Shown here piece after piece: positions 27,001-49,179 of a stretch of 64,000 bases of DNA (positions within the stretch are counted from its first letter, which is position 1; each line of letters starts with the position of its first letter). The notes under the pieces were generated by a model, which saw nothing but the letters and a program-made list of their open reading frames with translations, made no database searches and was not told where the DNA came from. The position numbers and the translations under genes are program-made. Source of the DNA: Argopecten irradians. Taxonomy: Eukaryota > Mollusca > Bivalvia > Pectinida > Pectinidae. The stretch lies in the NCBI RefSeq assembly GCF_041381155.1, contig NC_091143.1, positions 33,171,331-33,235,330 of the forward strand, written 5' to 3'.

Positions 27001-30000
27001 GAATTTCTATGTTATAACTAACGTTTATAAATCATCTGAAGCCATTTGAATGGTTTTTACAGCTTTATTCATCAAACCTTATGGTTTTTAATAAATGATG
27101 AAAAAAATAGCATGTCAAAATTATCGCCCAGTTACGGCACATATAACTTTAATATTAGACATTTGAAGCCGTATCAGTTTGGGTATGCACAGGGTGTTTC
27201 AAAAAACTGTTATAATTTCTTCATGCAAAATCTTAATGACACGGATTAAAACATTATATAAAGTAAGTGATCACACCGTTTGTTGGAATACAATAATTTA
27301 GAGTTAGGATTTAACAATAAAACATCATGACATCATTGATAATATCACTAAAACAATGATACACTGGTTTTTACCAAGGTACATTTGATCATAAAGTCTT
27401 GCATTTGTGTGGTAACATTCATTGTTTTATATTTACACTTGCTAAGCTTTTTCACTATACGCAAATTCTAGCCGAGTTTGTTTACCATAACTGCATGGTA
27501 ACATTGAAGTTTGAGCTTGCAAATAAAAATGTTCTATGCAACGAATGCCACTTTATTAAAGAAACACATGGCTTTGTTGACATTTCGACGCACATTACAT
27601 GTAAATGTACATGTGTAGTTTTTCATAGAATTTTGTAAACAATATATTTTATTAATATATAATACAAACATTTTATTTTAATTAACAATTGTATTTTTTT
27701 TAAAAACGAGAAAAAATATTCCGACGTGCAGTGCATTCAGTTTTGTTCAAAATGATGGATGGCAAATGTAAACATCACATCTGTGTCTGTCTTTGTCCTA
27801 CGATCGAGTCTTTGGAGTGAACGGGCGTGAGGCACTCTGGCAGAGTTCAGATATAAACATATTATCTTGTCCATATTCTTTGAGACTTTAGTAATTTGTA
27901 TTTTAAAACATGCACTGCTAGTAATCCATGTCGCTGCATAATAACGGTCAGATAGTTCACACATGTGAGTACAAATACTTTATGTAATTACGCTATATAT
28001 CAACTTTTACTAAAAATAAACACATATTTAAATATCTGATCTGATATAATAAAATAATGTTGTTATTATTATAAATAAGAATATGCTATTTTTACCTTAG
28101 GACTTTTGACGAATCTGTTCGTTGGCTGCTGGCAAATGGTAAAATAACCGAAGCAAAGAGAATTCTAAGAAAAGCTGCAAAAATGAACAAGGTGAACGAG
28201 GAGGAAATCTTAGAGGTTGTAGATCATGCTGGAGCTATCGCGTTAAAATCAAAGTTATTACAGGGCGATAATCAAACACAGAGCATCAATGGGAAGGAAT
28301 TGACGGGGCATTCCACTGACGTTCTGCCTAAGTACACGGTATGGACACTATTTACAAGACGGAGAATAGCCATCATTACTCTAATCATGACGTACACCTG
28401 GTAAGTCATACAAAAATCACCTCATGTGGATTTCCGTAAATTCTACGTATTTAAAATAATTGCTCAACAGATTATTTACAGTTTAAACCTAACACTATTG
28501 ATTGCTTTGATTGATGGAAGAGCGGGTCGTATTGTGTGTGTATGACAGAAGAGCAGGTCTTACTGTGTGTGTCTGATGGAAGAGCGGTCCATACTGTGTG
28601 TGTCTGATGTAAGAGCGGGCCTTATTGTGTGTGTCTGATTGAAGGGCGGGTCTTACTGTGTGTGTCTGATGGAAGAGCGGGCCTTATTGTGTGTGTATGA
28701 TGGAAGAGCGGGTCTTACTGTGTGTGTCTAATGAAAGAGCGGGCCTTATTGTGTGTGTCTGATGGAAGAGCGGGTCTTACTGTGTGTGTATGATGAAAGA
28801 GTGGGTCTTACTGTGTGTGTCTGATGGAAGAGCGGGTCTTACTGTGTGTCTGATGGAAGAGCGGGCCTTACTGTGTGTGTATGATGGAAGAGCGGGTCTT
28901 ACTGTGTGTGTATGATGGAAGAGCGGGTCTTACTGTGTGTGTCTGATGGAAGAGCGGGTCTTACTCTGTGTCTGATGGAAGAGCGGGTCTTACTGTGTGT
29001 CTGATGGAAGAGCGGTCCTTACTGTGTGTGTCAGATGGAAGAGCGGGTCTTACTGTGTGTTTATGATGGAAGAGCGGGCCTTATTGTGTGTGTATGATGT
29101 AAGAGCGGACCTTACTGTGTGTGTCTGATGGAAGAGCGGGCCTTACTGTGTGTGTCTCATGGAAGAGCGGGCCTTATTGTGTGTGTATGATGGAAGAGCG
29201 GGCCTTATTGTGTGTGTATGATGGAAGAGCGGTCCTTACTGTGTGTGTCTAATGAAAGAGCGGACCTTACTGTGTGTGTCTGATGGAAGAGCGGGCCTTA
29301 TTGTGTGTGTATGATGGAAGAGCGGGCCTTACTGTGTGTGTATGATGGAAGAGCGGTCCTTACAGTGTGTGTCTAATGAAAGAGCGGACCTTAATGTGTG
29401 TGTATGATGGAAGAGCGGGCCTTATTGTGTGTGTATGATGGAAGAGCGGTCCTTACTGTGTGTGTCTAATGAAAGAGCGGACCTTACTGTGTGTGTCTGA
29501 TGGAAGAGCGGGCCTTATTGTGTGTGTATGATGGAAGAGCGGGCCTTACTGTGTGTGTATGATGGAAGAGCGGTCCTTACAGTGTGTGTCTAATGAAAGA
29601 GCGGACCTTAATGTGTGTGTATGATGGAAGAGCGGGCCTTATTGTGTGTGTATGATGGAAGAGCGGTCCTTACTGTGTGTGTCTAATGAAAGAGCGGACC
29701 TTAATGTGTGTGTATGATGGAAGAGCGGACCTTACTGTGTGTGTCTGATGGAAGAGCGGTCCTTACTGTGTGTGTCTGATGGAAGTGCGGGCCTTACTGT
29801 GTGTGTCTAATGGAAGTGCGGGCCTTACTGTGTGTGTATGATGGAAGAGCGGGTCTTACTGTGTGTGTCTAATGAAAGAGCGGACCTTACTGTGTGTGTC
29901 TGATGGAAGAGCGGACCTTACTGTGTGTGTCTGATGGAAGTGCGGGCCTTACTGTGTGTCTGATTGAAGGACGGGTCTTATTGTGTGTGTCTGATTGAAG

Positions 30001-33000
30001 TGCGGGTCTTACTGTGTGTGTCTGATGGAAGTGCGGGCCTTATTGTGTGTGTCTGATTGAAGGGCGGGTCTTACTGTGTGTGTCTGATAGAAGTGCGGGT
30101 CATATTGTGTGTGTCTGATGAAAGAGCGGGTCTTACTGTGTGTGTCTGATGGAAGTGCGGGTCTTATTGTGTGTCTGATTGAAGGGCGGGTCTTACTGTG
30201 TGTATATGATGGAAGAGTGAACCTTTTTGATAATAAATGATCGGACATGTGCTTTTTTTCTCCGTCATTTTTCTAAAGGCTAATTAAACTACTGTAAATC
30301 GTTTTATTGTCGCGGGATACAAACTCAAAGTAACGCGAATTCAAACGTTACGCCAATAATTGTACTAACAAATGTAAATATACTGATAGGCCCTTGGTCG
30401 CGAATATGTTGTAATTCATGATGACGCGAAATACAGTATACGGGAAAATAAAGTGATTTTAGAGTAAAAGTGTCGTTATCCTATCTTGTAGATTGCTATG
30501 TTTCATTTATCGTGAATCTCTTTATACTCTATCCACATTATTATGTTTCTATTGTGACTCAGGCTTGTCAATAGCCTTACGTATTATGGCTTGTCTCTGT
30601 CGTCTGCTTCTCTACCTCTGGATCGTTTCTTGAGTTTCTTTCTTCTTTCCCTTGCGGAATTGCCAGTAGCACTCATCGAATACTTTACATTCAATAGGTA
30701 AGTGGCAAACATTTTACGAAACAATGTTCGTAAACAAATACTTATTTTTTACACATGTCTAAAAGACCTGTTACAGCTATAATTGGATTTTGTCCACGGA
30801 CCGATTGGACAAAACCCAAGTGCATTTTGTAGTACAATAACAGAGAACTAGAAAGATACATTTAATAATTTCAAAAGGCCCCAAAGGCATGTACTTGGGA
30901 TGCTTTAATGTTGCCCTCTCGAGCTGTACACCAGGGTCCCTTTTTTGGTTCAAAACTATATCAAAATAATTGTCAATTAGAGGGCAACATTAAATCATCC
31001 CTAGTACAGACTCCTGGGGCCTTTGGAATTTTTAAATGAAACTGGTCCCAGGTAGAATAAAATAATGACCTCTGATCACGTATACATTTAATTTGTGCTA
31101 ATCATGGTACGCGTAATGTATTTTATATCCAGAATTCAATTAAATTTACCAAGAAATGTTGTTGTCTTCTTTTGAAATGATCCCATTTGATATTATTAAG
31201 TAACTTTTTTTTTAACTTAAGTATATTTTAAAGCAAATGGAAGTAATTTGGATCTTAGCATACCAGAAAATCTCTTTATGTTGGGGGGGGGGGGGGGGTG
31301 CCCGTATCAGGCAGGAAATATAACCTATGACATTGCATCCACATCGTTTGTTCTGTTGCCTCCAGTTTTACTATGAAATTGTCCAGGGTGTAGAGATCGT
31401 AAGTGATCACAACCCTTGGAGTATCGAGAATGCAGTAACGCAAACGTTCAAATAAGATAATTGTACACCAATTAATCTGTTGGGGAGTATATAATATATA
31501 CACATGGGAGTTATTTTATTGATAGCATAGCATAATATAAATAATAAAAAATAATAATAATTAATGATGGTATCAGTCGATTCATTAACTGTTTTATTGG
31601 GATCTATAAGTACTGGTGAATAATGGAACAGCACATATTGTATTACTCTATGTATTTCACATTGGTAGATGGGGCCGGAAGTGGCTTTGTATCATATTCC
31701 ACGCAGTAGCTGCTTTATCTCTCATAGCCGGAACAGTCGCTAATTATCTATCTGATAAGGTTTTTGTGTTAATGTAAAACATTATTTTGTCATTATTATA
31801 CAAAAACCCTTTAAATGTATTGGGCTATAGTGCTACAATCATTCTAAGATGGAATTGATTAATACAAAAGGTCCAAGAACCTTAAACGAAGGATATCTCT
31901 TCTGTGTTTATTGTGAATGTTTCGAAGAAACCACTTCAATGTGAACTCCACGAAAAGTCAAGGGTGACAGCGGTCAAACAAACAAAGTTATGATCATCAT
32001 CCCTCGCCTTATCGGTAATTCGGCCCTGTAGATAGGGCGTTAGTATTAAACCTGCTACCCCGATTGGATGATTGTAAAAGACGACTAAATTTAGGATCTT
32101 ACCTTTTCTCTTCTTCCTAACTGACTTTATTCTTCCTAACGTCTCTCTTGACACCGCCTCACTTTTGGCCTTTTGTGGAGCGCTTGTCCCTGTGAGGTAG
32201 GCTCTGGGTTTTGTCCCCTGGCCGAGACATGTACCAAACTCTATAAAAGTGGTAGTTTCTGTTCCTGCTTAGCACTCAGCATAGTCCGCTAAACCTGCCT
32301 ATATTATTAGGCTTTTTAATTTTTTTTTTTTTTTTGCCTAATATATAGTCTATATATTAGGCAAAAAAAAAAAATTAAAAAAGCCTAATAATATAGGCAG
32401 GTTTAGCGGACTACACTCAGCATACAGGGGGTAGGACGACTGGTTCGCCCGTTGTCACTATAATGTGACCGGGTGGGGTGTGTTGCTTGGTGTCTTCGGC
32501 AGCATGCTTCAGTGATATAGCACTATAAAAAGGTCAACAGTTCCATTATACAAGAAGACACAACACGAACATACCGCAGTCTCCCAAAACACGCACCTCG
32601 CACTTTACACACGCTACACACTGCATACATGAGAGACCGTCCTTACATGACCCTGGCTGTTACTAGTATATACAAATGTAATCAAACAAACAAACAAAGT
32701 ATTCAGGTTTTTATAGGAATAAACAATTACCCATACAAACACATAGCCTTTCTTACAATAAGAAAATAATATGAAGCCATCAATAAGATTGATATTTTGT
32801 CTCTCCATTTTACTAGAATTGAAAAAAAACATCTAGCTCAAGGACGATTCTTTAATTCTAGAAGTCATTTGGAGTACGTGTAAAAGAACCGCTGATAAAT
32901 TTACATACACATGTTTATTTTTCTTTCATGTTAATTGAATAAAACCCGTTTCTAATAATTTCATTGATACATTACATCAATATTTCTTACAATGAGGTAC

Positions 33001-36000
33001 GTCATGTCATAATCCAGTTGCTATTTCATATGAAGAGAAATTGAAAAAAAAAGTTTGATAAATAACAAATGAACATAATTTTCTCAATTTATTCCCTGTC
33101 GTACCTATCAAACTGCAACAAGTGCCATTTTTATAACTGAGTCTTGTTCACAATTTCTTATTTTATCTTTTGATAGAGAAGCCAGGTGCAGAGGTGGCTT
33201 TGATGATCTTCTTCTTTATCGGAAAGCTGAGTATCGCTGGATCCTTTAGCACGATATTCTTATTTACACCGGAGTTATACCCTACAAACCTCAGGTAAAA
33301 AGAAAGAAATAACATTTTCTTCTTAATCCGCTATTATCCTGATTCATTTGAAATACGTCGGTTTTGAGATACAAAAACGACGTTGGTAAGTAGCCGTCGA
33401 TAAGCCCCGCCTTCCGGTGATTATGATGTCATGATGTTTTGGCGTCAGAGCCTCCAGGGGGTAGGATTAATCAAACTCAGTATTTATTATCTTAAAATCA
33501 CTGAATCTTATCAGCCCGATCTGCTTCAGATTTCTATGATGTTGATGAACCAGCGCTCGTTTTCTCTTTCGTGGAATCTGGTTCTACCATTACTGTATTT
33601 TTGTTTATCACATAATCCACCTGATATGCAGTGATTTCGCCAGTGTAATATTTTTGCGTATGGCACTAGTGTAATATGACCTTGAGCGATTTTCATTGCC
33701 TAGAAATTCATTGTGACGTTAGACAGAAACAATTAAATGACGTCAGGAAAAATGACGTGACATCAGGATTAAGAGGAAGGCGGGACAAAATGGCGACCTC
33801 TGCTGGATTTTCGGAATACATTTTGACGTGAAATTGTTTGTTATGTAGGTATCGGTAATGTGATAAAAAGTATCTTAAATTTGTGTTCATTTCATATGAG
33901 ATTTTATCAAAGTCGTCTCGAAGTTTTAATTTTTGCTCGCCAAGGCTCGCTAAAATAAAAACTTCTTAGACTCGTTTCATAAAATCTCATATGAAATGAA
34001 CACTCATGTAAGATCTTATATATATGATATTTCATATTTATCTGTATTTTACATTAATTTGTCAATCGCGTTACATGTAACCGGTGTTACGGCGTTTTAA
34101 GGAATTGCTATTAGAATGAAAATTACTTAATATACGCGGTGGCGCATTTTTTCGGTTTTATATGTAGGTTACTGGTGTTTTCGTGGAGATTTCGTTTCGC
34201 GGTTTTCTGGAGTTCTACTTTACCTTAGTCTGTCTCGTTTTGAATAAAAACATAAACCAAAATGGTTTTAGATTTGTGTGATGATTGATTATACATAATT
34301 TGGTCTGTTGTGTCTGATATTCTTTTCAAGTGACAATTCAGTCTAAGAGAACATTAAAATTTGTACATATATCGAAAAAACCCAGTTCTAATGGATATTA
34401 GATCTGTCGGTTTTACGGTGATATAACAGAAAAGCCCATAGTGGTGAAATGCGTGTAAAATGTTCAAACTCGCTCGCTGTCCGCCATTACACATAGTGGT
34501 CGAACATCATGTATGCCGAACCCTGTCCCTTGCTCGTAGAGAAGTGCAACTTTTGTCTAGAACTGCTTAAATCGCTCTGACAGTAGTATGTTTACTTTAA
34601 TAGGTGAATTTTCTTGTCTAAAATCATTTTGTCACCTTCTCAGTGGTTATGTAGTTAATTTGTTTAACGTGCGTGACTTTGGCTCGGGTATGGGTACAGC
34701 GTACATGTTGTACATGTAGAGAGATCTACCTGCTTAATCGTATTGATCAACAATTTGTAATTACAACGGTATCAATTAAAATACTAAACAATGACATTGA
34801 ATTTGTCAATATTTTATGTTAAATGTTTCATAAGAAATGTAGAATAATACATTTATGCCATTTTTGCTTCTTGATTATATAAAAGATATAGCCTTAGTGA
34901 ATTGTCTCTTTAACACAACAGACGATCAGACCAATTTGGTTAGTTTTACCGTGTTTAGGATTTTAGCTCTAAAGGGCACATATTTGTATCCATTCAGAAA
35001 TGTTGGCATTGGTTTTTCGTCTGCTGCTGGACGAATCGGTGGAATGTTGGCTCCGTTTGCTGGTCCATTGGTAAGAACAGCCAATACATGTTTGTAATTA
35101 ATTGATAAGATTTAACAAATAAGTGGAAACAACAAAATTGACTGAAAAAGAAAAAAAACATAAATTAAAATGATGTTATAATTACTCGCTAAATAAAGTG
35201 ATGGTGTTTTCAGGTTGGTGCATCACCGTCATCTGCTATTCCTAGAAAGCATAATTTGAAAATTCATTCTTTTCTGTGGATCATCCATTATCAAAATTAT
35301 TCGAGATCTCAGTTACGGCTTCTAAATGGCTGACATTGGAGAAATTGTTCCTTCCTTCCCCAATAACTTATAGGATGTCCCATAACTATGCATGCATGTT
35401 TTACAATGGAAAACCCATCTCACAGACTCAATAGTGGTTTATTATTGTTTATATTTACACTGTCTCTTCATGCCTATTAGTTTTAATAATACAATTTCTT
35501 TTAAATAACATTTGAAACAGGAAGTATACAACAACAGAATATTTTATGATGGAGAAATATTAATTATGATGTGGTGGTAAGCTTCTGTGACTAAAAACGA
35601 CTTATCACCACGGTCTAGATATAGAGCTAACTTATTAAGGATAAGTCCCCAAACGCATCACTGTTACCAAGATTTGAGACAAACATGATAAATAACAGCC
35701 ATGCGTTGGAAGTTTAATGCCTCCCGTTTACAAAAATACTGTGTACCATTTCCATTTAAGACTTTCATATCTTTTATGACATACATTGTATGACACAAAT
35801 CAGAAAAGATGATATTTCTATATGATTATAACATATATTTACTTTTGATATTTTATATCCTTAATATCCGCGCGTTTCCTGTCCTACACAACCATAGCTA
35901 TATCATATCGGGGCAATGTTTATTTCCAGGCTGAAAAAGTAAGCTGGGCTCCCGGGGCCATATTCGGTGTCATGTGTGTATCGGTGGCCTTATTATTGCC

Positions 36001-36142
36001 CCTCTTACCGGAACCGACTGGACATGAACTGCCCACCACTGTCGAGGAGCTGGAGCAATGGTATAAACAACACAGCGGAATTAAACGACGTAAACCATTG
36101 AACATAAACAACACAGCGGAATTAAACGACGTAAAACATTGA
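23530..36142 (+). CDS. SLC22-family organic cation/anion transporter (10 exons)
   Basis: Exons 23530-23665, 24184-24389, 25155-25385, 26343-26545, 28101-28400, 30563-30697, 31669-31759, 33179-33294, 34998-35070 and 35930-36142 join in consistent phases into 568 codons (567 residues), close to the usual 550-570 for SLC22. As an MFS plasma-membrane carrier it should move organic ions across the membrane; substrate cannot be told. Hallmarks: N-terminal LDEVWRRLGTWGRYQ; TM1; a large extracellular loop (46-~125) with cysteines 53, 78, 97, 119 and sequons N58, N68, N85, N88; MFS motif LSDKYGRK (147-153); DESVRWLL; WGRKW in the 8-9 loop; PELYPTNLR; and the late EPTGHELPTTVEELE segment. ATG at 23530 was chosen because SLC22 proteins start a few residues before this motif; the frame is open further upstream without another ATG. 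Confidence 0.93.
23735..24100. repeat. (GAT/GAC)n trinucleotide microsatellite in SLC22 intron 1
   Basis: Roughly 360 bp of GAT, GAC and ATGATATGAT-type trinucleotides, with an almost pure (GAT)n tract near 23990-24075. Minus-strand frames of poly-His or poly-Ser are artefacts. Confidence 0.97.
24184..24389 (+). CDS. SLC22 exon 2
   Basis: Residues 46-114, most of the extracellular loop with four sequons and three cysteines. Acceptor ctactag|, donor GACTGAG|gtaaga. Confidence 0.9.
24880..25150. repeat. ~49-bp minisatellite in SLC22 intron 2
   Basis: Five to six copies of a unit containing TTATATTGTGTGTTGTCTGT, TATTATCTACTGA and TTGTTGTGACATG. The last copy ends close to the exon-3 acceptor. 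Confidence 0.88.
25155..25385 (+). CDS. SLC22 exon 3
   Basis: Residues 115-191: WDLVCEG, TM2, the MFS motif DKYGRK, TM3 and the start of TM4 (MRFICGVTHQ). Acceptor ataacag|, donor CACCAG|gtatgt. Confidence 0.93.
25590..26215. repeat. 21-bp minisatellite in SLC22 intron 3
   Basis: About 29 units of a 21-bp repeat around GATGTTCGTAATGTTGGTGG. As 21 is divisible by 3, two frames stay open for over 200 codons (GDVRNVG and MLVAMFV repeats); both are rejected as genes. The array ends about 130 bp upstream of exon 4. Confidence 0.95.
26343..26545 (+). CDS. SLC22 exon 4
   Basis: Residues 192-258 plus two bases: TM4 to TM6, with EILPEESRYMAEVLG and LSWRYLYLVLSL. Acceptor gttgtag|, donor GATTTTG|gtcagt. 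Confidence 0.9.
26546..28100. other. SLC22 intron 4, no recognised element
   Basis: AT-rich intron without a tandem array, unlike introns 1, 2, 3 and 5. Small inverted repeats exist (for example AAAATGATTTTTGGC near 26790). Short open frames at 27046 and 27399 show no domain. Confidence 0.6.
28101..28400 (+). CDS. SLC22 exon 5
   Basis: Residues 259-358: DESVRWLLANGK, the large cytoplasmic loop (AKRILRKAAKMNKVNEEEIL) and the start of TM7. Acceptor taccttag|, donor CACCTG|gtaagt. Confidence 0.93.
28500..30225. repeat. ~31-bp minisatellite in SLC22 intron 5
   Basis: About 55 copies of GATGGAAGAGCGGGCCTTAC followed by TGTGTGTGTCT or TGTGTGTAT variants. Multi-unit blocks repeat (29220-29400 against 29450-29720), showing higher-order duplication. 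Confidence 0.96.
30563..30697 (+). CDS. SLC22 exon 6
   Basis: Residues 359-403: TM7-TM8 with LTYYGLSLSS and ELPVALIEYF. Not visible as a long open frame by itself; found by splice phase and family pattern. Donor TTCAATAG|gtaagt. Confidence 0.87.
30859..31038. mobile_element. Fold-back MITE in SLC22 intron 6
   Basis: Imperfect inverted arms of about 60 bp, sharing CATTTAA, AAAGGCCCC and TTTAATGTTGCCCTCT, around a centre near 30950. No clear target duplication. Confidence 0.75.
31283..31300. repeat. Homopolymer G run
   Basis: About 17 consecutive G in AT-rich intron sequence; could form a G-quadruplex or be an assembly-error hotspot. Confidence 0.85.
31669..31759 (+). CDS. SLC22 exon 7
   Basis: Residues 404-434: RWGRKWLCIIFHAVAA, the second GRK motif and TM9. 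Donor GATAAG|gttttt is weaker than the others. Confidence 0.83.
32030..32690 (+). mobile_element. SINE-like dispersed repeat, interrupted by a fold-back
   Basis: Contains landmarks I recall from bivalve repeats: AAAGACGACTAAATTTAGGA, GGTTTTGTCCCCTGGCC, GTGACCGGGTGGGGTG, CTTCGGCAGCATGCTTCAG, and a tail CCCTGGCTGTTACTA ending in (CAAA)n. The fold-back at 32282-32413 sits inside it, so the host repeat is older. Lies in SLC22 intron 7. The exact 5' end is uncertain. Confidence 0.65.
32273..32422. mobile_element. Fold-back MITE with perfect 9-bp target duplication
   Basis: A near-perfect 132-bp palindrome (32282-32413) opens TAGTCCGCTAAACCTGCC and closes with its complement. It is flanked by CACTCAGCA on both sides (32273-32281, 32414-32422). 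A 9-bp duplication is typical of Mutator-like elements. Its high arm identity suggests recent insertion. Confidence 0.9.
33179..33294 (+). CDS. SLC22 exon 8
   Basis: Residues 435-472: TM10 and the family motif FTPELYPTNLR. The reading frame requires the second of two adjacent AGs (tgatagag|) as acceptor. Confidence 0.85.
33885..34001. mobile_element. Fold-back MITE in SLC22 intron 8
   Basis: A 117-bp palindrome opening GTTCATTTCATATGAGATTT and closing with the complement; centre CTCGCCAAGGCTCGC. No clear target duplication. Confidence 0.8.
34328..34910 (+). mobile_element. ~580-bp MITE copy B
   Basis: Reverse complement of 16955-17526 over its full length with moderate divergence. Ends are GACAATTCAG and GTGAATTGTC; TA follows at the right end but is not obvious on the left. 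Its right end is 87 bp upstream of SLC22 exon 9. Confidence 0.75.
34998..35070 (+). CDS. SLC22 exon 9
   Basis: Residues 473-497: NVGIGFSSAAGRIGGMLAPF, TM11. Begins 87 bp after MITE copy B. Donor CCATTG|gtaaga. Confidence 0.9.
35071..35929. other. SLC22 intron 9, nothing recognised
   Basis: No tandem array, fold-back or coding fragment recognised in this intron. Confidence 0.6.
35930..36142 (+). CDS. SLC22 exon 10 (C-terminal)
   Basis: Residues 498-567 and TGA: TM12, then EPTGHELPTTVEELEQW and a basic tail. The last ~27 codons lie in a 41-bp tandem repeat (see 36061-36315). AATAAA at 36161-36166 is a candidate poly-A signal. Confidence 0.9.
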   Translation, partial: AEKVSWAPGAIFGVMCVSVALLLPLLPEPTGHELPTTVEELEQWYKQHSGIKRRKPLNINNTAELNDVKH

Positions 36143-39158: not shown

Positions 39159-42100
39159 GTGAGAATTTTGTTCAGAATTCAAAGATGACAACATTTAGCA
39201 CGCTATGCAATACATAAAAGAATAGTGCATGCAGAAACAGATACGGAATATATCGGCTCAATCGCCCTCCTAATCAGATGTAATATGAATTTAAGGCAAA
39301 GCCACAAAAGAGCGCAGCTACGTGTAAAAAAAGTGAATATAGTTAGGATTATAACCTCAGAACGAGATTAAAACTGTTTAAACTTGAATTTCGATCATTG
39401 ATTTTTATGCTTTTCTTCAAAACTATTTTTAATGGATGTTTTGTGTTTAGAAATACATGTGTATAATAATAGTCGTCATATACAGATCAGAAAGAAATAT
39501 TCAACTTGAATCTCTCGAAGGCGAAATACTTGGAAAACATGCCGTGTATAAAAAATGTGCGGGAATATGTGCCGTCATCAGCAAGATATGTTCCGTCAAG
39601 CAGCAAGATATATTCACAACAAATATCACGACACCAGTTCGGTTACAAACATGATACATCAACTCAACTGGCCAACATTACAGACACGACGGCTACACAC
39701 AAGATTAATACTTTTCTACAAAATGATACACAATATAGTTGCTGTCGAATACCAGACCATATTCCTACCAGTAGACCACAGAACCAGACACTCCAATCCA
39801 CACTCCTTCAGACAAATCTCTGCTACAAAGGACACATACAAATATTCATTTTTCCCACAAACGATAACACAATGGAATCTCCTCCCTGTAGCAGCAGTAC
39901 AATGCGCTACACTCGAGGACTTCAAGGCACATATTTCCAACGTAGCCCTTGAAGCCCTCACACATTAGTTCTGCACACACCTTTTATCTATACTTGTATA
40001 CTAAAAAAAAAAAAAAATAAAAAAAAATCACAAATTATTTAATCCCTTCACACCCTTGCACCCCTACAGATCACCGTGACATAATCGTCATATTTTGACG
40101 GCGTCATGTAAATAGAAGAAGATCGTTGGCACCAAGCTTCCTTGTATCTCGACTGACGGTGCCGTGTGCTTGACAACACAGGAGTCTCTCATATTCACTG
40201 TATCATCTGATTGATTTGTTTTTATAGCACATCCATTTTTGAGTCAGTTTAACCTGAGCTGGGCTAATAGTGGCAATATTGATATGTCTTGCTGCTAGAC
40301 TTTATCAAAGTGAATACAGTTTTTCCAGAGACTGTAGATTTATATTTGTACATTGTATGAATTTATTACAGTTTTTCCGGAGACTGTAGATTTATATCTG
40401 TACATTGCATGCATTGATTACAGTTTTTCCAGAGACTGTAGATTTATATCTGTACATTGTATGAATTGATTACAGTTTTTCCAGAGACTGTAGATTTATA
40501 TCTGTACATTGTATGCATTTATTACAGTTTTTCCAGAGACTGTGTAGATTTATATCTGTACATTGTATGAATTTATTACAGTTTTTCCAGAGACTGTGTA
40601 GATTTATATCTGTACATTGTATGAATTTATTACAGTTTTTCCAGAGACTGTGTAGATTTATATCTGTACATTGTATGAATTTATTACAGTTTTTCCAGAG
40701 ACTGTAGATTTATATCTGTACATTGTATGCATTTATTACAGTTTTCCAGAGACTGTGTGGATTTATATTTGTACATTGTATGCATTAATTTATTACAGTT
40801 TTTCCAGAGACTGTAGATTTATATTTGTACATTGTATGAATTAATTACAGTTTTTCCAGAGACTGTAGATTTATATCTGTACATTGTATACATTTATTAC
40901 AGTTTTTCCAGAGACTGTAGATTTATATCTGTACAATGCATTGTATGAATTGATTACAGTTTTTCCAGAGACTGTAGATTTATATCTGTACATTGTATAC
41001 ATTTATTACAGTTTTTCCAGAGACTGTAGATTTATATCTGTACATTGTATGCATTTATTACAGTTTTTCCAGAGACTGTAGATTTATATTTGTACATTGT
41101 ATGAATTGCTTACAGTTTTTCAGGAGACTGAATTTGTATATGTACATTGTATGAATTGATTACAGTTTTTTGCAGACTGAGGATTTGTACATTGTATGAA
41201 TTGATTACAGTTTTTCCAGAGACTGTGTAGATTTATATTTGTACATTGTATGCATTTATTACAGTTTTTCAGAGACTGTGTGGATTTATATTTGTACATT
41301 GTATGCATTTATTACAGTTTTTCAGAGACTGTGTGGATTTATATTTGTACATTGTATGCATTTATTACAGTTTTTCCAGAGACTGTGTGGATTTATATTT
41401 GTACATTGTATGAATTGATTACAGTTTTTCCAGAGACTATGTAGATTTATATCTGTACATTGTATGAATTGATTACAGTTTTTCCAGAGACTGTAGATTT
41501 ATATCTGTACATTGTATGAATTTATTAGTTTTTCCAGAGACTGTAGATTTATATCTGTACATTGTATGCATTTATTACAGTTTTTCCAGAGACTGTAGAT
41601 TTATATCTGTACATTGTATGAATTTATTACAGTTTTTCCAGAGACTGTGTAGATTTATATCTGTACAATGCATGCATTTATTACAGTTTTTCCAGAGACT
41701 GTAGATTTATATTTGTACATTGTATGAATTGCTTACAGTTTTTCAAGAGACTGAATTTGTATATGTACATTGTATGAATTGATTACATTTTTTTTGCAGA
41801 CTGAGGATTTGTACATTTTATGCATTTATTACAGTTTTTTCGGAGACTGTGTGGATTTGGACCGCCTCCTGCCAAGCCCAACTTCACAGTGCTGTGTATT
41901 GGTCTGGAAAAGTCTGGAAAGAGTTCCTTGTTAGCAGTGCTTAGTGGGGAAAAGTGTGATGAAATACCACCAACCATTGGTATGGAAAATGTATTTTATA
42001 TAGTTGCCAAGCATTGTTATGGAAAATGTATTTGAGTTTGGAGAATTCAATGATATTGCCAGTTTTTGATGATCAAACTTTCAATATTACGAATATAGTG

Positions 42101-45100
42101 TACGTCGCTCTTTAGAAGGTTTCATGATAATTTGGAAATGGTTTTCTGGACTACTTAAAAACATCACATTAATACTTCACTAGCAGTCTTTTGTTTTCAT
42201 TAAGAATTATTTACATGATTTTTGTCTGCACAAACATATATATATTTTCATTACTACGTAAAAAAAAAATCACAGATCTATATTTCAAAGTTTTATAAGG
42301 CAGGAAAAGATGCATGATTTACCTTATAATTCATGTATATATTTATGAATGATAGATTTTGTTTGTCACGGTGGTAAAGAATTTGATTGGTTTACAGGGT
42401 TCAGCATCAAAGCTCTTTTGTTTGACGACTGTATTGTTGATGTCAAAGAACTAGGAGGTCAGTATACAAAACTACAGAACATTCAATATCTACATAATGT
42501 TAGTACATAACATTCAATATCTATATAATGTTAGTACATAACATTCAATATCTACATAATGTTAGTACATAACATTCAATATCTATATAACATTAGAACA
42601 TAACATTCAATATCTATATGACATTAGAATATAACATTCAATATTTATATAACATTAGAATATAACATTCAATATCTATATAACATTAGAACATAACATT
42701 CAATATCTATATAATGTTAGTACATAGCATTCAATTTCAATATAATGTGATCACCAATATCTGTTTCTCTGCTTTAAGGTGGTGAATCGATTCGTCCATA
42801 CTGGGACCGATACTACGCTGGAGCCCAAGGAATTATATTTGTAGTTGATAGCTCTTCGTCTGACGAGCGCCTAAAGCTAGCCAGTAATGAACTACACAAA
42901 GCTCTCGGTGACCCAGTGTTGGATGATCTCCCTTTATTAGTGTTGTGTAATTATCAGGATAAACCAAATGCAAAAACTGTCTCCCAGGTTTGTACTCTAT
43001 ACCTTTATACAATGTAATTATGTTTTAGGTATTCTATAACTTTATACAATGTAATTATATATTAGGGGTGAGAGGTACCTTTATACAATGTAATTATGTT
43101 TTAGGTATTCTATAACTTTATACAATGTAATTATATATTAGGGGTGAGAGGTAACTATACAATGTAATTATATATAAGGGGTGAGTGGTAACTGTACAAT
43201 GTAATTATATATTAGGGGTGAAATGTAACTATACAATATAATAATATATTAGGAGTGAGAGATAACTATACAATGTAATTATATATTAGAGGTGAGAGAT
43301 AACTATACAATGTAATTATATATAAGGGGTGAGAGATAACTATACAACGTAATTATATATTAGGGGTGAAATGAAAGTATAAAATGTAATTATATATTGG
43401 GGGTGAGAGATAACTATACAACGTAATTATATATTAGGGATGAGAGGTAACTATACAATGTAATTATATATTAGGGATGAGAGGTAAATATACAATGTAA
43501 TTATATATTAGGGGTGAGAGATAACTATACAATGTAATTATATATTAGGGGTGAGAGATAACTATGCAATGTAATTATATATTAGGGGTGAGAGAATAAC
43601 TATACAATGTAATTATATATTAGGGGTGAGAGATAACTATACAATGTAATTATATATTAGGGGTGAGAGATAACTATGCAATGTAATTATATATTAGGGG
43701 TGAGAGATAACTATACAATGTAATTATATATTAGGGATGAGAGGTAAATATACAATGTAATTATATATTAGGAGTGAGAGATAACTATACAACAATGTAA
43801 TTATATATTAGGAGTGAGAGATAACTATACAATGTAATTATATATTAGGAGTGAGAGATAACTATACAATGTAATTATATATTAAGGATGAGAGGTAACT
43901 ATACAATGTAATTATATATTAGGGATGAAATGTAACTATACAATGTAATTATATATTAGGGATGAAATGTAACTATACAATGTAATATATATTAGGGGTG
44001 AGAGATAACTACAATGTAATTATATATTAGGGGTGAGAGGTAACTATACAATGTAATTATATATTAGGGATGAAATGTAACTATACAATGTAATTATATA
44101 TTAGGGGTGAGAGATAACTATACAACGTAATTATATATTAGGGGTGAGAGGTAACTATACAATGTTATTATATATAAGGGGTGAGAGATAACTACAATGT
44201 AATTATATATTAGGGATGAATTGATAGTATAAACCCAGTTGATTTCAACAAACTACTCAACTTTATTTCTCGATAGATTGAGTATGTCACGCGCAATTTG
44301 GAGCCGCGCGGATGAATTTATGATGTAACTTTTGGTGTTTTCAGTAACTGAACGTACGTTCGATGAACATGTACATGTATCAAAATAGGTTTGAACACAT
44401 ATACATGTACGTGTGTAAATACAAATGTAGAAAAGTTACATTGTTTATGTTACTACCGTACCTCTTTGAGCAATGCTTCCGTGCGTTATGATAAATAAAC
44501 AATGTTGTACAATGTACAGTTTTGCACATTCCGATGACGTCGCAATGTTTACATGTTTTGTGTCAGTGAGTCTGTGTTGTTCGCTACAACATGTAGGTCT
44601 ACATCCTATTTGTATTTTTAACATCTTTGGTTGTACGCAAATGGATAAGATATGTCAGGACAACATAGTCTTTGAGTTGGATAAGTTTAACCAAAACGAC
44701 CTAGCACGACAATGCATTTTTGTTCACCTCGGGGGACAGACAAGTCCTGTACGTTATTATCTACTGTGAATCGGCGAGAGTAGGCCTTACATAAACAATG
44801 TATGTTTTGGGTGTTTCGAAATATCAATGAAACGGAATCCTACAATTGTAGCTTTACAATACTTGTAATAGATATCTCTAATATTTATTGAAGTTTTTGA
44901 AACAACAATATAAAAATAGCTAACATTTTGAGAGCGGTACAGTAAACGTTTACAGTAGTGGGCCTACCTGTGTTTGTACATGTTCCTCGAAACGACGTCC
45001 GATAATTTGAAAATCTCCAAAATCCGGAAATAATGACATGGAACTATGTAAAACATCCGTGTATTCAAGTAATTTCAAACGCGAACTGATTAAGTAGAAC

Positions 45101-48100
45101 TCAAGTGATCACAAAATTAAAGAAACTCTCTGTTTGTCACACCTCCTTGACACAGGCGGTTTGAATCGGACGCCGCGTCACAACTACGTTAAATATCCTG
45201 CCACGTTATGAATTGTGTAAGCGTGTGTAATCATAGGAAGCAAAAGAATAAAACCAAACTGCTTTGCACCATGGTGTTTTTAACAGCAGATAAATAAAAA
45301 CTATTTAAAGTTCCATACCGGGAAAACCTCAGATACATGCTTCATCAGACGGAATCATTTTATTTGTATGTTCATTGATAAATTGGCGGGAATTTCCGCA
45401 CATTCGAGTGGCTGTTCCAAATGCCTGTCGGAACCAAACGATATAATCCAATGTTAGTCTTATAAATGCCATAAACACTATTAAGGATAAATTTTGAGCT
45501 ATGAAAATAATAGTTAAGACTGTAAATATAAGGATTAAAGTTTCTTTCTGGTGGTTCTATCGAAGGATAAAGTTGAGTAGTAGGTATCAATATTTGTTTC
45601 ATGGACCGCTCCGCGGTCCATTCCAAATATCGATACCTACTCAACTTTATCCTTTCGATAGAACCACCAGAAAGAAACTTTAATCCTTAAATATAATATA
45701 TTAGGAGTGAGAGATAACTATACAATGTAATTATATATTAGAGGTGAGAGATAAACTATACAATGTAATTATATATAAGGGGTGAGAGATAACTATACAA
45801 CGTAATTATATATTAGGGTGTGAAAGATATCTATACAATGTAATTATATATTAGGGGTGAAAGATAACTATACAATGTAATTTATATATTAGGGAGTGAG
45901 AGATATCTATACAATGTAATTATATATTAGGGGTGAAAGATAACTATACAATGTAAATTATATATTAGGGGTGAAAGATAACTATACAATGTAATTTATA
46001 TATTAGGGTGTGAAAGATAACTATACAATGTAATTATATATTAGGGTTGAAAGATAACTATACAATGTAATTTTATATTAGGGGTGAAAGAGATAACTAT
46101 ACAATGTAATTATATATTAGGGGTGAGATGAAACTATAGAATGTAATTTATCCCCCGCCCAACGAAGTTGGCGGGGGATATACAAATGGGTTCTGTCCGT
46201 CCGTCTGTCCGTCTCCGTCTGTCCATCCGTATGAATGGTTTCCGGAACATTACTCTAAACCAATAGAGATATTTCCACGTAACACATTGGTCTTATGGTC
46301 TAGTAGTGCCTTTTGCTATTTTTAGGTTTTCATTTTTTGCATTTATTCCGTAACCATGGAAACATTGCTGAAAATATCATATTTTTGTACCAGGTTCGTT
46401 TCCGGAGCATAACTCTAAAACCAGAAGAGATATTTCCACGAAACTTCATAGACACATTGTTCTTATGGTCTAGTAGTGCCTTTTGCTATTTTTAGGTTTT
46501 CATTTTTTGCACTTTTTCCGTAACCATGGAAACATTGCTGAAAATATATTTTTGTACCAGGTTCGTTTCCGCAGCATAACTGGAAAACCGGTTGAGATAT
46601 ATGCACGGAACTCCATAGGCACATTAGTCTTATGGTCTAGTAGTGCCTTTTGCTATTTTAAGGTTTTCACTTTTTGTACTTTTTTCTGTAACCATGGAAA
46701 CATTGCTGAAAATGGCAGATTTTTGTGTAAGAATCGTTTCCGGAGCACAACTCTAAAACCAGCAGAGATATTTCCATGAAACTTCATAGACACATTGTTC
46801 TTATGGTCTAGTAGTGCCTTTTGCTATTTTTAGGTTTTCACTTTTTGTGCTTTTTTTTCTGTAACCATAGAAACATTGCTGAAAATATCATATTTTTGTA
46901 GCAGGTTCATTTCCGGAGCATAACTCTAAAACCAGCAGAGATATTTCCACGAAACTTCATAGACACATTCTTTTTAGGCCCTTTATGACACTGTCATTGT
47001 ACTAGTTATAAACAGGTTAATAGTTTTTCACCTGTATGCTTCACATTCATGAAAACTATTCACCTTGCTGTATCTGCCCTTACCAGAAAAGAAAGAAAAA
47101 CATTTGGATTATATTCGTGGCAGTGTTAATTGGTGGATGAAAAAAAAATACGAATTTCAAAACTGCGGTCAAATTTGAATGATATATGTATCTTAAGACA
47201 TTAGGCAACACAGACCTTGAATTTAATACTGCGAGGAGTAAAATTTTTTTTATATTAAAAAAAAAAAAAACGGGAAAATTATCGCCAACAAATGTCAAGG
47301 CTGTATACCTGATTCAACAATTGCAGCCCCGCTCTACTTGAATTATACTCCATCTTTCTTTAGCTCAACTTCCTTTTTCCTGTTTTTTTATACACATAAG
47401 TCTCCACAATCAAACTTCACTTCAGCTTTGGCGGGGAATCTGAATGACTATGTCCTTGTTATATATTAGGGGTGAGATGAAACTATACAACGTAATTATA
47501 TATTAGGAGTAAGAGATAATAATTATACAATGTAATTTATATATTAGGGGTGAGAGATAACAATACAATGTAAATATATATTAGGGGTGAGAGATAACTA
47601 TACAATGTAATTATATATTAGGGGTGAGAGATAACTATACAATGTAATTATATATTAGGGGTGAGAGATAACTATACAATGTAATTATATATTAGGGGTG
47701 AGAGGTAACTATACAATGTAATTATATATTAGGGGTGAGAGATAACTATACAATGTAATTATATATTAGGGATGAGAGGTAAATATACAATGTAATTATA
47801 TATTAGGGGTGAGAGATAACTATACGATGTAATTATATATTAGGGTGAGAGATAACTACCGTATACAATGTAATTATATATTAGGGGTGAGAAGTCACTA
47901 TGTAGTCTCTGTGCTGTCTGGTAAAAAAATATTTATTTTATAATAATTATGCAACTTCAGTGTATGGTGACAGACTACAATTGCAATATACTGTACCATT
48001 GCATTATGCACTCTATGAGATTACTTCCCTTTATCTTGTAGCATCAGTATCAATCCAAAAACACTGATGATCGTGATAAGTTCAATATCCATGTTTGTTC

Positions 48101-48652
48101 TTTGCTCACCTGGTCTGTCCATCGTCCGTCTTTCAACATTTCCTTTAAATTGCTGCTTGTTATAGATTTCTGCATGTTTGCAACCAAATTTGGCCAGAAA
48201 TATCCTGGAGAGAAGGGGAACATAGTTTGCATAAATTTTGGCTCTGACCCCCCCGGGGCAGGAGGGGCGGGGCCCAATATTTATATTTCATCTCTTATTA
48301 GTAACTTAATTTAAATTTTATTAAATTGTCTATGATTAGGATTATTTTTGCTATTACATGATGATTTTTGTGTAAGTTCTAAATAAGCTTTTAACCATGT
48401 GTAGTATTATTATGAAGTCAATGTTTATTGATGAATTTTTCATTATGAGTTTTCTCTGTGTTTCCTCAGCTAAAAGAAATTCTTGAAGTGAGCCTAGAGG
48501 ACGGACACAGGCGCTGGAATATATTTGGATGCAGTATTCATGATAAAGACTCCATCAAACAAAGCTTCGAGGAACTCAATAAGACGCTTCTACATCCTAA
48601 ACCTCATTCAAAGGCAAATCATTCAGACAACAATGAATTTAGTCAACTGTGA
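39105..48652 (+). CDS. ARL15: ADP-ribosylation factor-like protein 15 (5 exons)
   Basis: Exons 39105-39158, 41835-41979, 42398-42457, 42779-42987 and 48470-48652 join in phases 0, 1, 1, 0 into 217 codons (216 residues; human ARL15 is 204). Atypical Arf-family GTPase; in vertebrates reported to bind CNNM magnesium transporters and affect trafficking. Motifs: G-PPPAKP linker (27-33); P-loop GLEKSGKS (41-48); switch-1 PTIGFSIKA (64-72); ARL15-specific VKELGG (82-87) in place of the usual DxxGQ; IRPYWDRYY (91-99) and GIIFVVDSSSSDERL; NYQDKP (144-149) for NKxD; CSIHD for the G5 loop. Human ARL15 shares GFSIKA, VKELGG, IRxYWxRYY and NxQDKP (from memory). N-terminal cysteines 2, 9 and 24 could be palmitoylated. 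Poly-A signal AATAAA at 48882-48887. Confidence 0.95.
39470..40125 (+). mobile_element. 5'-truncated LINE, 3' end, in ARL15 intron 1
   Basis: The frame at 39555-39968 reads RQAARYIHNKYHDTSSVTNM, then LQTRRLHTRLILFYKMIH, YKYSFFPQTITQWNLLPVAA and TLEDFKAHISNVALEA. This is the standard C-terminus of jockey/CR1-like non-LTR reverse-transcriptase proteins in bivalves. After the stop come an A-rich stretch, then CACCCCTACAGATCACCGTG and ATGTAAATAGAAGAAG, typical of the 3' untranslated part. Only the last ~135 codons remain, consistent with 5' truncation on insertion. The final part is intact and looks fairly young. Confidence 0.85.
40310..41834 (+). repeat. 52-54 bp array of duplicated ARL15 exon-2 splice acceptors
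   Basis: About 29 units, each containing TTTATTACAG followed by TTTTTCCAGAGACTG and T(GTG)AGATTT, then TATCTGTACATTGTATG. The last unit merges into the real exon-2 acceptor and exon start (TTTATTACAG|TTTTTTCGGAGACTGTGTGG). Two main lengths occur: 52 bp (CTGTAGA) and 54 bp (CTGTGTAGA). In the exon-2 frame the 52-bp type meets a TAG; the 54-bp type reads through as FFQRLCRFISVHCM. Confidence 0.95.
41835..41979 (+). CDS. ARL15: ARL15 exon 2 (P-loop)
   Basis: Residues 19-66 plus one base; starts FFRRLCGFGPPPAKP after tttattacag| and ends ACCATTG|gtatgg. Its acceptor and first ~24 bases are the source of the upstream array. Confidence 0.93.
42398..42457 (+). CDS. ARL15: ARL15 exon 3 (switch region)
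   Basis: Sixty bases, residues 67-86 plus one base: FSIKALLFDDCIVDVKELGG. Too short to show as an open frame alone. Acceptor tttacag|, donor GGAG|gtcagt. Confidence 0.93.
42478..42745. repeat. 31-bp minisatellite in ARL15 intron 3
   Basis: Eight to nine copies of AACATTCAATATCTATATAA plus TGTTAGTACAT (starts 42481, 42512). Ends about 35 bp before the exon-4 acceptor. Confidence 0.93.
42779..42987 (+). CDS. ARL15: ARL15 exon 4 (nucleotide-binding core)
   Basis: Residues 87-156, including IRPYWDRYYAGAQGIIFVVD and the guanine-specificity NYQD. Acceptor gctttaag|, donor CTCCCAG|gtttgt. Confidence 0.95.
42990..44234. repeat. 37-bp minisatellite in ARL15 intron 4, part 1
   Basis: About 33 copies of CTATACAATGTAATTATATA plus TTAGGGGTGAGAGATAA. 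Begins almost at the exon-4 donor. Parts 2 and 3 follow at 45690-46148 and 47458-47900. Confidence 0.96.
44235..45520. mobile_element. Insertion splitting the 37-bp array, unclassified
   Basis: About 1.3 kb of non-repetitive sequence interrupts the 37-bp array. Its left end contains CTACTCAACTTTATTTCTCG, which resembles an arm of the fold-back at its right side. A 98-codon open frame (44473-44769) has no recognisable domain. Probably a non-autonomous DNA element. Confidence 0.5.
45523..45695. mobile_element. Fold-back MITE with perfect 8-bp target duplication
   Basis: A 157-bp palindrome (45531-45687) opening AGGATTAAAGTTTCTTTCTG and closing with its complement, centred on GACCGCTCCGCGGTC. 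Flanked by TAAATATA on both sides (45523-45530, 45688-45695). An 8-bp duplication is usual for hAT-like elements. Confidence 0.9.
45690..46148. repeat. 37-bp minisatellite in ARL15 intron 4, part 2
   Basis: About 12 further copies of the same 37-bp unit, with more single-base indels than part 1. Confidence 0.95.
46150..47458 (+). mobile_element. Dispersed repeat with GC-rich hairpin head and ~170-bp internal tandem copies
   Basis: Opens with the hairpin CCCCCGCC-CAACGAAGTT-GGCGGGGG, then ATACAAATGGGTTCTGTCCG and (TCCGTCTG)n. About five tandem copies of a ~170-bp unit follow (landmarks TTTCCGGAGCATAACTCTAA, CTTATGGTCTAGTAGTGCC, TAACCATGGAAACATTGCTG) to about 46980. Near its right end is a diverged copy of the head (TTGGCGGGGAATCTGAATG). 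It interrupts the 37-bp array. I recall similar heads as abundant in bivalve genomes. Confidence 0.7.
47458..47900. repeat. 37-bp minisatellite in ARL15 intron 4, part 3
   Basis: About 12 copies of the 37-bp unit, continuing the array after the second insertion. Confidence 0.95.
48085..48275 (+). mobile_element. Fragment of a bivalve-type dispersed repeat
   Basis: CTTTGCTCACCTGGTCTGTC, AACCAAATTTGGCCAGAAA and CTGACCCCCC resemble the family at 52177-52780 and 52950-53330. Truncated. Confidence 0.5.
48470..48652 (+). CDS. ARL15: ARL15 exon 5 (C-terminal)
   Basis: Residues 157-216 and TGA: EILEVSLEDGHRRWNIFGCS, then IHDKDSIKQSFEELNKTLL. The tail is longer than in vertebrates. The last codons are in a 47-bp direct duplication. 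Confidence 0.95.
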   Translation, partial: LKEILEVSLEDGHRRWNIFGCSIHDKDSIKQSFEELNKTLLHPKPHSKANHSDNNEFSQL

Positions 48653-48711
48653 TGACAACTATTTATCATTCAGACAACAATGAATTTAGTCAACTGTGAT
48701 GACAACTATTT
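48618..48711 (+). repeat. 47-bp tandem duplication across the ARL15 stop codon
   Basis: ATCATTCAGACAACAATGAA... occurs at 48618 and again at 48665. Each copy includes the TGA context, so the 3' untranslated region begins with a second copy of the protein's last codons. Confidence 0.95.
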
Positions 48712-49179
48712 ATCATTATTATTTGAATACCAATATTTGGTATTGTCACCTGGTGTGTTGATGTTTATACAGTTATAACCTTGTTCACTTTGATTTCATA
48801 TGCTTCATTCTTAGTGGATATTATCGTGAGTACGCATTAATAGTTAATGTTTACATCGAAGTAGCTCGACACTATATATGTAATAAAAGTACTAGTAAAG
48901 ATACTTATTAATCTTCAAATGAATTGAGCAAAATTCTCTATGTAAGGTTGAACACATTCAATTTACCTCTACATGTGAGTACTTAACGATTTGCAAGCGT
49001 AAACCTTTTGTAGTGGTGTTTGTATACCTTCAGACTTTTATACGCTGTTCATACATTCACACAAATTTAAGTGCAGGCTGAATTTTCAAAATTAATATAA
49101 AGTGGAAACTCCCTCCCTGCATATTTCCACATTTTTAGCCCGACATCATCCCATGGTGGGCTATTCAAATTGCTTTTTC

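Follow-up and report, generated by a model that had tools for sequence, protein, structure and literature searches.

The window, that is, the whole 64,000-nucleotide stretch of Argopecten irradians DNA analysed here, located at G000:C10:33171331-33235330 in the assembly, carries on its forward strand coding exons of the ARL15 gene, and one of these is directly preceded by a minisatellite whose units resemble the beginning of that same exon. The exons that bear on the array are the following (a caret marks a splice point):

41835..41979, + strand: ARL15 coding exon, here called exon 2, with a phase-0 acceptor ACAG^TTT and a donor G^GTATGG; the repeat derives from its first 24 bases
42398..42457, + strand: next ARL15 coding exon, GFSIKALLFDDCIVDVKELG
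42779..42987, + strand: following ARL15 coding exon, GGESIRPYWDRYY...TVSQ

The reading frame of exon 2 is FFRRLCGFGPPPAKP, and its full translation is FFRRLCGFGPPPAKPNFTVLCIGLEKSGKSSLL. Together with the two exons that follow, it matches the Pfam Arf family (6.4e-30), and among solved structures ARL15 itself (8f6d, E 1.4e-10) comes closest to the first 69 residues. ARL15 forms a single locus in the assembly, as three of the 12 genome matches are its own exons and the nine elsewhere are 28-46% identical, presumably representing other Arf-like genes; no ARL15 relatives were found in viral contigs. The scallop exon starts with FFRRLCGFGP and shares the pattern F-R-x-L-C-x-x-G-P with mammalian ARL15, partly as read by eye. 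For mouse Arl15, a published primer gives MDYLCFRA, and LCCKGP was read by eye from two other published primers; these readings indicate that the exon start is old coding sequence. Passages of two papers describe cysteines 17, 22 and 23 of mammalian ARL15 as S-acylated and required for membrane localisation (PMC13196370, PMC8689486). By our own alignment, the scallop exon retains only the cysteine at position 22.

The + strand of the 41.8 kb upstream of the exon in the window was scanned for exon 1 with a 17-residue query, which we take to be the mammalian ARL15 N-terminus. This short peptide, which gives the scan low power, found no convincing match: the best score was 28, without a methionine after the preceding stop, the next was 23, and the third, with a score of 21 at 40112 just before the array, contained an internal stop. 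Exon 1 was thus not recognised upstream in the window, and the intron that would hold the array is a putative intron 1. Further upstream on the same strand, exon-like open reading frames of a transporter were seen by eye at 24162-36142, with a Sugar_tr match at 25152-25394. If ARL15 exon 1 lies beyond them, the transporter gene would be nested in an ARL15 intron.

Repeats are abundant throughout the window (1-64000), about 41% of which is minisatellite, including arrays of 8.2 kb (23-bp unit) and 5.3 kb (39-bp unit) at the two ends. Within ARL15, a 31-bp array at 42473-42748 takes up most of the next-but-one intron, starting 15 nt past the donor, with a unit that by eye contains no exon bases. 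Three arrays in one further intron (43043-44219, 45696-46148 and 47459-47892) share an almost identical 37-38-bp unit (TATTAGGGGTGAGAGATAAC and neighbours), and an exact 47-bp tandem duplication (48618-48717, 2.1 copies) lies at the end of the presumed last coding exon.

The array in front of exon 2 comprises the following parts:

40310..40319, + strand: left array edge, GTGAATACAG, a junction with upstream sequence that is unlike the other units
40320..41834, + strand: splice-junction minisatellite ("mirage") of 29 units, each with about 24 bp resembling the start of exon 2 and about 28-30 bp of intron end, mostly with ACAG
41064..41210, + strand: units 15-17, distal copy of a three-unit block (unit 15 to unit 27, 100%; 16 to 28, 96%; 17 to 29, 89%)
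41687..41834, + strand: units 27-29, proximal copy of the block, whose lengths of 52, 49 and 47 bp break the exon frame

Tandem Repeats Finder (TRF) reports a period of 52 and 29.4 copies for 40315-41850, and cutting at the GAGACT/GCAGACTG core yields 30 anchors, corresponding to 29 units and the exon. Unit lengths range from 45 to 57 bp, with thirteen units of 52 bp, seven of 54 bp and the remaining nine spread over 45-57 bp. An earlier note on this DNA had every one of about 29 units carrying the same junction sequence, which was slightly too strong: the number of units stands, while the junction is exactly TTTATTACAG in 17 of 30 cases (the true one counted) and TTGATTACAG in another seven. 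ACAG ends 28 of the 30 junctions, and an AG of any kind ends 29. The same note was right that each unit holds about 24 exon-like bases, that the last unit is the exon itself and that the feature ends at 41979, the final exon base ahead of GT. Between the units and the first 24 bases of the exon, the edit distance is 2-8 (mean 4.4, n=29). Allowing up to three mismatches, the exon 24-mer has 10 matches in the window on both strands, namely the exon and nine places in the array, and the absence of any match in 100 dinucleotide-preserving shuffles excludes a chance resemblance.

The structure of the array itself is thus certain, and by its build it is a mirage, with three defining features present. 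The unit spans an intron-exon boundary and includes exonic bases as well as a splice signal, the genuine exon forms the last copy, starting at 41835 directly after unit 29, and the repeat was born at the gene itself rather than drawn from a dispersed family, as the unit was found at no second place in the 846-Mb assembly by a genome search that skipped very common words and scored the best candidates alone. At C1:2.59 Mb, TTTATTACAG recurs at even intervals in another array, which was considered and set aside, since it has a different unit (L009) and is unrelated.

That the exon is ancestral and the array derived from it, as the earlier note proposed, is supported by three observations: the exon start is conserved coding sequence, the unit is found only at this locus, and the copies have decayed as coding sequence through changes that spoil its sense (CGG to CAG; GTGTGG to GTGTAG or GTAG). 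Within the array, the mean pairwise identity of units is 0.87 and the longest exact repeat is 135 bp. Units 5-7 are identical, and likewise units 4, 8, 14 and 24, while an offset of 12 units has the highest mean identity among all offsets (0.907). Divergent units are found at the exon edge (28-29) and also inside the array (16-17). The identical units and the likeness of units 15-17 to units 27-29 point to copying both of single units and of blocks. At the far end, the left-edge junction GTGAATACAG is a candidate for the ancestral acceptor, which the growing array would have separated from the exon by 1.5 kb. Among the 13 units of 52 bp, exon-derived columns are nearly invariant (mean minor share 0.003), and intron-derived columns have a mean minor share of 0.051.

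The array places many potential acceptors in front of exon 2. Translation from every AG between 40200 and 41834 (n=114, the true acceptor at 41834 counted) showed that only the true AG gives an open, in-frame entry into exon 2, which none of the 113 other AGs does. Two main classes of poison acceptors make up 54 sites, 27 of the ACAG^TTTT type ahead of the true site and 27 of the TTTCAG or TTTGCAG type, and the note's reading of many decoy 3' splice sites before the true one holds as a description of the sequence. By translation, every decoy leads to a premature stop or a frameshift. Among the ACAG decoys, 14 of 27 stop after FFQRL or FFRRL, because units of the GTAG type (15 of 29) have lost two bases. 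The true acceptor has a pyrimidine fraction of 0.69, the highest of the 28 ACAG sites, compared with 0.50-0.62 for the 27 ACAG decoys, although this is a crude measure. Many TTTCAG-type decoys equal it at 0.69, and one site exceeds it:

41788..41799, + strand: T8GCAG decoy acceptor with a pyrimidine fraction of 0.75, above that of the true site and 35 nt upstream of it; its use would cause a frameshift

With decoys at 0.75 and 0.69, strength alone fails to explain the choice of site, and the T8GCAG decoy at 41799 is the one that we expect to be likely to leak. A weakening of the decoys nearest the exon was also considered, because, compared with units 16 and 17, a CAG is gone from unit 28 and the ACAG from unit 29. 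The idea was dropped, since unit 29 also carries the decoy with the 0.75 tract.

The 54-bp units are open in the exon frame among themselves, as the earlier note stated, yet the irregular units 27-29 and intervening stops separate them from the exon, whose own frame is open back to 41805 and no farther. The proposed gain of 18 residues per 54-bp unit thus fails, and in-frame extension through these units is ruled out by the translation from every AG. Nor does ARL15 offer translatable isoforms from extra sites of the kind known from human IFI6/G1P3 (6-16), whose minisatellite reportedly provides multiple splice donors that are said to be used.

Taken together, the array was probably born by tandem duplication across the ARL15 junction and is spliced out with the intron as a nearly neutral structure of the mirage kind. 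An ancestral tandem duplication would have spanned the junction of the ARL15 intron and exon 2, and the array would then have grown to 29 units by slippage or unequal exchange, including the copying of whole blocks, as the relationships between units suggest. The last exon-like copy, being joined to the rest of exon 2, would have remained coding while the others became intron, so that exon 1 would be joined to the acceptor at 41834 and the 29 copies would leave with the intron. The acceptor at 41834 would be chosen because it alone adjoins a complete exon with its own donor, as expected under exon definition, and because none of the other ACAG sites (28 with the true one) has as high a pyrimidine fraction. 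Transcripts that use a decoy, with their stops and frameshifts, would presumably be cleared by nonsense-mediated decay (NMD), which would leave the array nearly neutral and free to change in length. Judged from the sequence, the array is most likely passenger DNA hidden by splicing, with decoys that are mostly ignored and no role of its own.

To place the ARL15 array in the context of its genome, 85 other exon segments, all matches to Pfam models or protein queries, served as a control: 48 from myosins (a set of 30 and a further set of 18), 30 from kinases and 7 Arf-like ones. Some of them lie in one gene and some at overlapping loci, and the three ARL15 loci (L010, L011 and L019) were excluded. 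In every case, the segment plus 50 flanking bases at both ends was matched against the sequence around it (67 + 18 segments). The kinase control consists of the best 30 of 138 matches, of which 17 cover at least 200 of the 263 domain positions without interruption and consequently have few junctions nearby; the myosin control consists of 48 segments of the 75 matches listed (18 of the 45 rows without loci included). Long splice-junction arrays were found in three of the 85 segments, two at acceptors and one at a donor, and by family in 3/48 myosin, 0/30 kinase and 0/7 Arf-like segments:

G000:C5:36365841 to about 36368550, - strand: myosin acceptor array (L046/L080), 19 exon bases, 60-bp unit, 41 decoys TTAG^ATGTA
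G000:C4:31490988, - strand: myosin acceptor array (L090), TGTAG^GAGAA, about 13 exon bases, 56-bp unit, at least 8 decoys
G000:C16:3233009-3233656, - strand: myosin donor array (L089), exon end plus ATG^GTGAGT, 54-bp unit, at least 10 donors

The ARL15 array is thus not unusual for its own genome, as arrays of the same kind lie at other splice junctions. In L046, use of 10 of the 41 decoys would extend the exon in frame and without a stop, and the units of L089 are open in frame, so that splicing from a more distant donor would lengthen the protein by 18 residues for each unit. These decoys, which are not poison, mean that harmlessness through NMD is not a general rule. The L089 unit was found at one place only, in a genome search that skipped very common words and scored the best candidates alone. 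IFI6/G1P3 resembles ARL15 in having a splice site multiplied by a repeat, yet there it is a donor, which makes the L089 array the closer analogue.

Four further segments of the 85 have versions with 2-6 copies, as judged by eye, which are possible early or decayed stages:

L041: acceptor, 2 copies (by eye)
L024: acceptor, 3 copies, degenerate (by eye)
L042: donor, 2 copies (by eye)
L030: donor, about 6 copies, with hardly any exon sequence (by eye)

Left out of the count were a 118-bp duplication starting at an exon (L088), a repeat just after a donor (L038) and two loci that match copies of neighbouring genes (L012 and L018). The survey loci contain 33 arrays of at least 4.5 copies in 251 kb, boundary arrays included. 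A crude Poisson estimate gives 0.5-0.9 long boundary arrays expected for a guessed 100-170 boundaries, compared with three seen (P 0.015-0.058); as the number of boundaries was guessed and the density includes the boundary arrays themselves, no enrichment is claimed, and the count is compatible with random birth and tolerance. Two other observations concern loci of this genome. Two joined exon pieces of striated-muscle myosin (175 residues) have 174 residues identical to 1DFK/1DFL/1B7T, with 1KK7 and 1QVI scoring equally, all of which we take to be bay scallop myosin; the match marks the DNA as that of a scallop, most likely Argopecten, and not of amphioxus. In addition, kinase matches at G000:C6:3136323 and C255:27715, one on a chromosome and the other on a small contig, have equal scores, which suggests a leftover haplotig or a duplication.

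The main alternative to passenger DNA is that the array acts as a functional decoy field, in which dozens of acceptors would lower the amount of productive ARL15 mRNA in a length-dependent manner through poison splicing and NMD, thereby tuning expression. The poison nature of all ARL15 decoys, the presence of a better tract at a decoy only 35 nt away from the true acceptor and the exact long repeats, which suggest recent turnover and hence likely length variation, are in line with such a field, as is a C. elegans minisatellite over-represented near alternative splicing regions in passages of PMC4039745. However, the assembly has only one ARL15 locus, amphioxus mirages are reported in passages of two papers not to disturb splicing (PMC3087553, PMC3902484), and similar arrays lie at other exons, where some of the decoys would not be poison, which passenger DNA explains better; from the sequence evidence, tuning appears unlikely. 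A broader version, in which many scallop genes would have fields of decoy acceptors or donors arising from frequent junction minisatellites, with the length of the ARL15 array setting the share of productive mRNA and varying between individuals, is improbable.

The remaining alternatives concern what the array is rather than what it does. It could be speculated that it is not intronic but belongs to a 5' leader or promoter region, with translation starting within the last unit:

41820..41834, + strand: the only one of the 32 ATGs in the array from which translation runs in frame and without a stop into exon 2 (MHLLQFFRRLC...)

The scan of 41.8 kb without a convincing exon 1 would fit this, and mouse ARL15 likewise has a methionine a few residues ahead of FRA. 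Yet the 31 other ATGs would then sit in the leader, the junction has the T-rich form of an acceptor ending in ACAG, the other boundary arrays lie at exons inside myosin heads, and published mouse Arl15 assays presume an exon 1-2 junction (TaqMan 'Exon1-2'), the passages giving its presence and not its position; a leader is therefore quite unlikely. The match between exon and array, which are continuous, shows no direction in itself, so the repeat may have come first and the exon may have been extended into it. Such a capture is very improbable, however, as the exon start encodes residues common to mammalian ARL15 in the region of the S-acylated cysteines, and the units carry stop codons and are found at this locus alone. 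Finally, tandem arrays are error-prone in assemblies, and the copy number of the ARL15 array in this assembly could be off, but a falsely expanded array is hardly credible given the diversity of its units and the similarly built arrays on other chromosomes. The array thus remains best explained as a junction-spanning duplication that is removed with the intron.

Structures of this kind are already known. In amphioxus, passages of PMC3087553 describe the mirage as a minisatellite-like tandem duplication across an intron-exon boundary, with Canestro et al. 2002 cited for it, and the cases named there and in passages of PMC3902484 are the globins BflGb6 and BflGb9, Adh3, TnC and PGBD5, the last added by PMC3902484, which cites Adh and TnC. 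The BflGb6 mirage resembles that of scallop ARL15 in repeating the 3' end of an intron and the 5' part of exon 2 (PMC3087553), and across the amphioxus cases both acceptor and donor sides are affected and many units carry splice signals (PMC3087553, PMC3902484). RT-PCR reportedly points to splicing that stays regular despite the mirages (PMC3087553). The copy number differs, as the scallop array has 29 units compared with 6 and 3 in the two haplotypes of BflGb6 (PMC3087553) and 2-7 in PGBD5 (PMC3902484), and so does the kind of evidence, since length polymorphism and splicing were studied in amphioxus (PMC3087553, PMC3902484), whereas the scallop array is described from its sequence.

More distant parallels are found elsewhere. 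According to passages of PMC2812944, internal tandem repeats in human segmental duplications include minisatellites with a mean unit of 30 bp that lie at exons or exon-intron boundaries, as in ARL15, and alter gene structure; they differ in their low copy number (4 on average), in being identified by comparing recent paralogues and in that some are kept in transcripts. Intron gain by tandem duplication in Drosophila and potato also gives rise to duplicate splice signals, yet there a new intron arises inside an exon, whereas in scallop ARL15 an existing intron seems to have been enlarged (PMC4974935; passages of PMC2891723). Among molluscs, intron 3 of an abalone TSSK1-like gene holds a length-variable 27-bp minisatellite, and the passages are silent on whether it reaches an exon or splice site (PMC6905558); similarly, an earthworm metallothionein intron contains repeats, with passages silent on exon contact (PMC12783039). 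A splice-junction minisatellite in a mollusc was not among the matches listed in open-licence PMC literature, as represented by titles, abstract openings and passages. What is new, then, is the mollusc host, the copy number relative to the compared cases and the fact that a single genome holds several of these arrays.

The ARL15 array extends a structure described in amphioxus to a mollusc, at a copy number far above that of the globin and PGBD5 cases. Genes with boundary arrays constitute natural experiments on how splicing settles on a single acceptor or donor when dozens of nearly identical sites are available, and these experiments cover both arrays of poison decoys, as in ARL15, and arrays open in frame, as in L089 and part of L046. 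In addition, gene prediction may go astray at boundary arrays, and these may supply new exons, introns or protein repeats.
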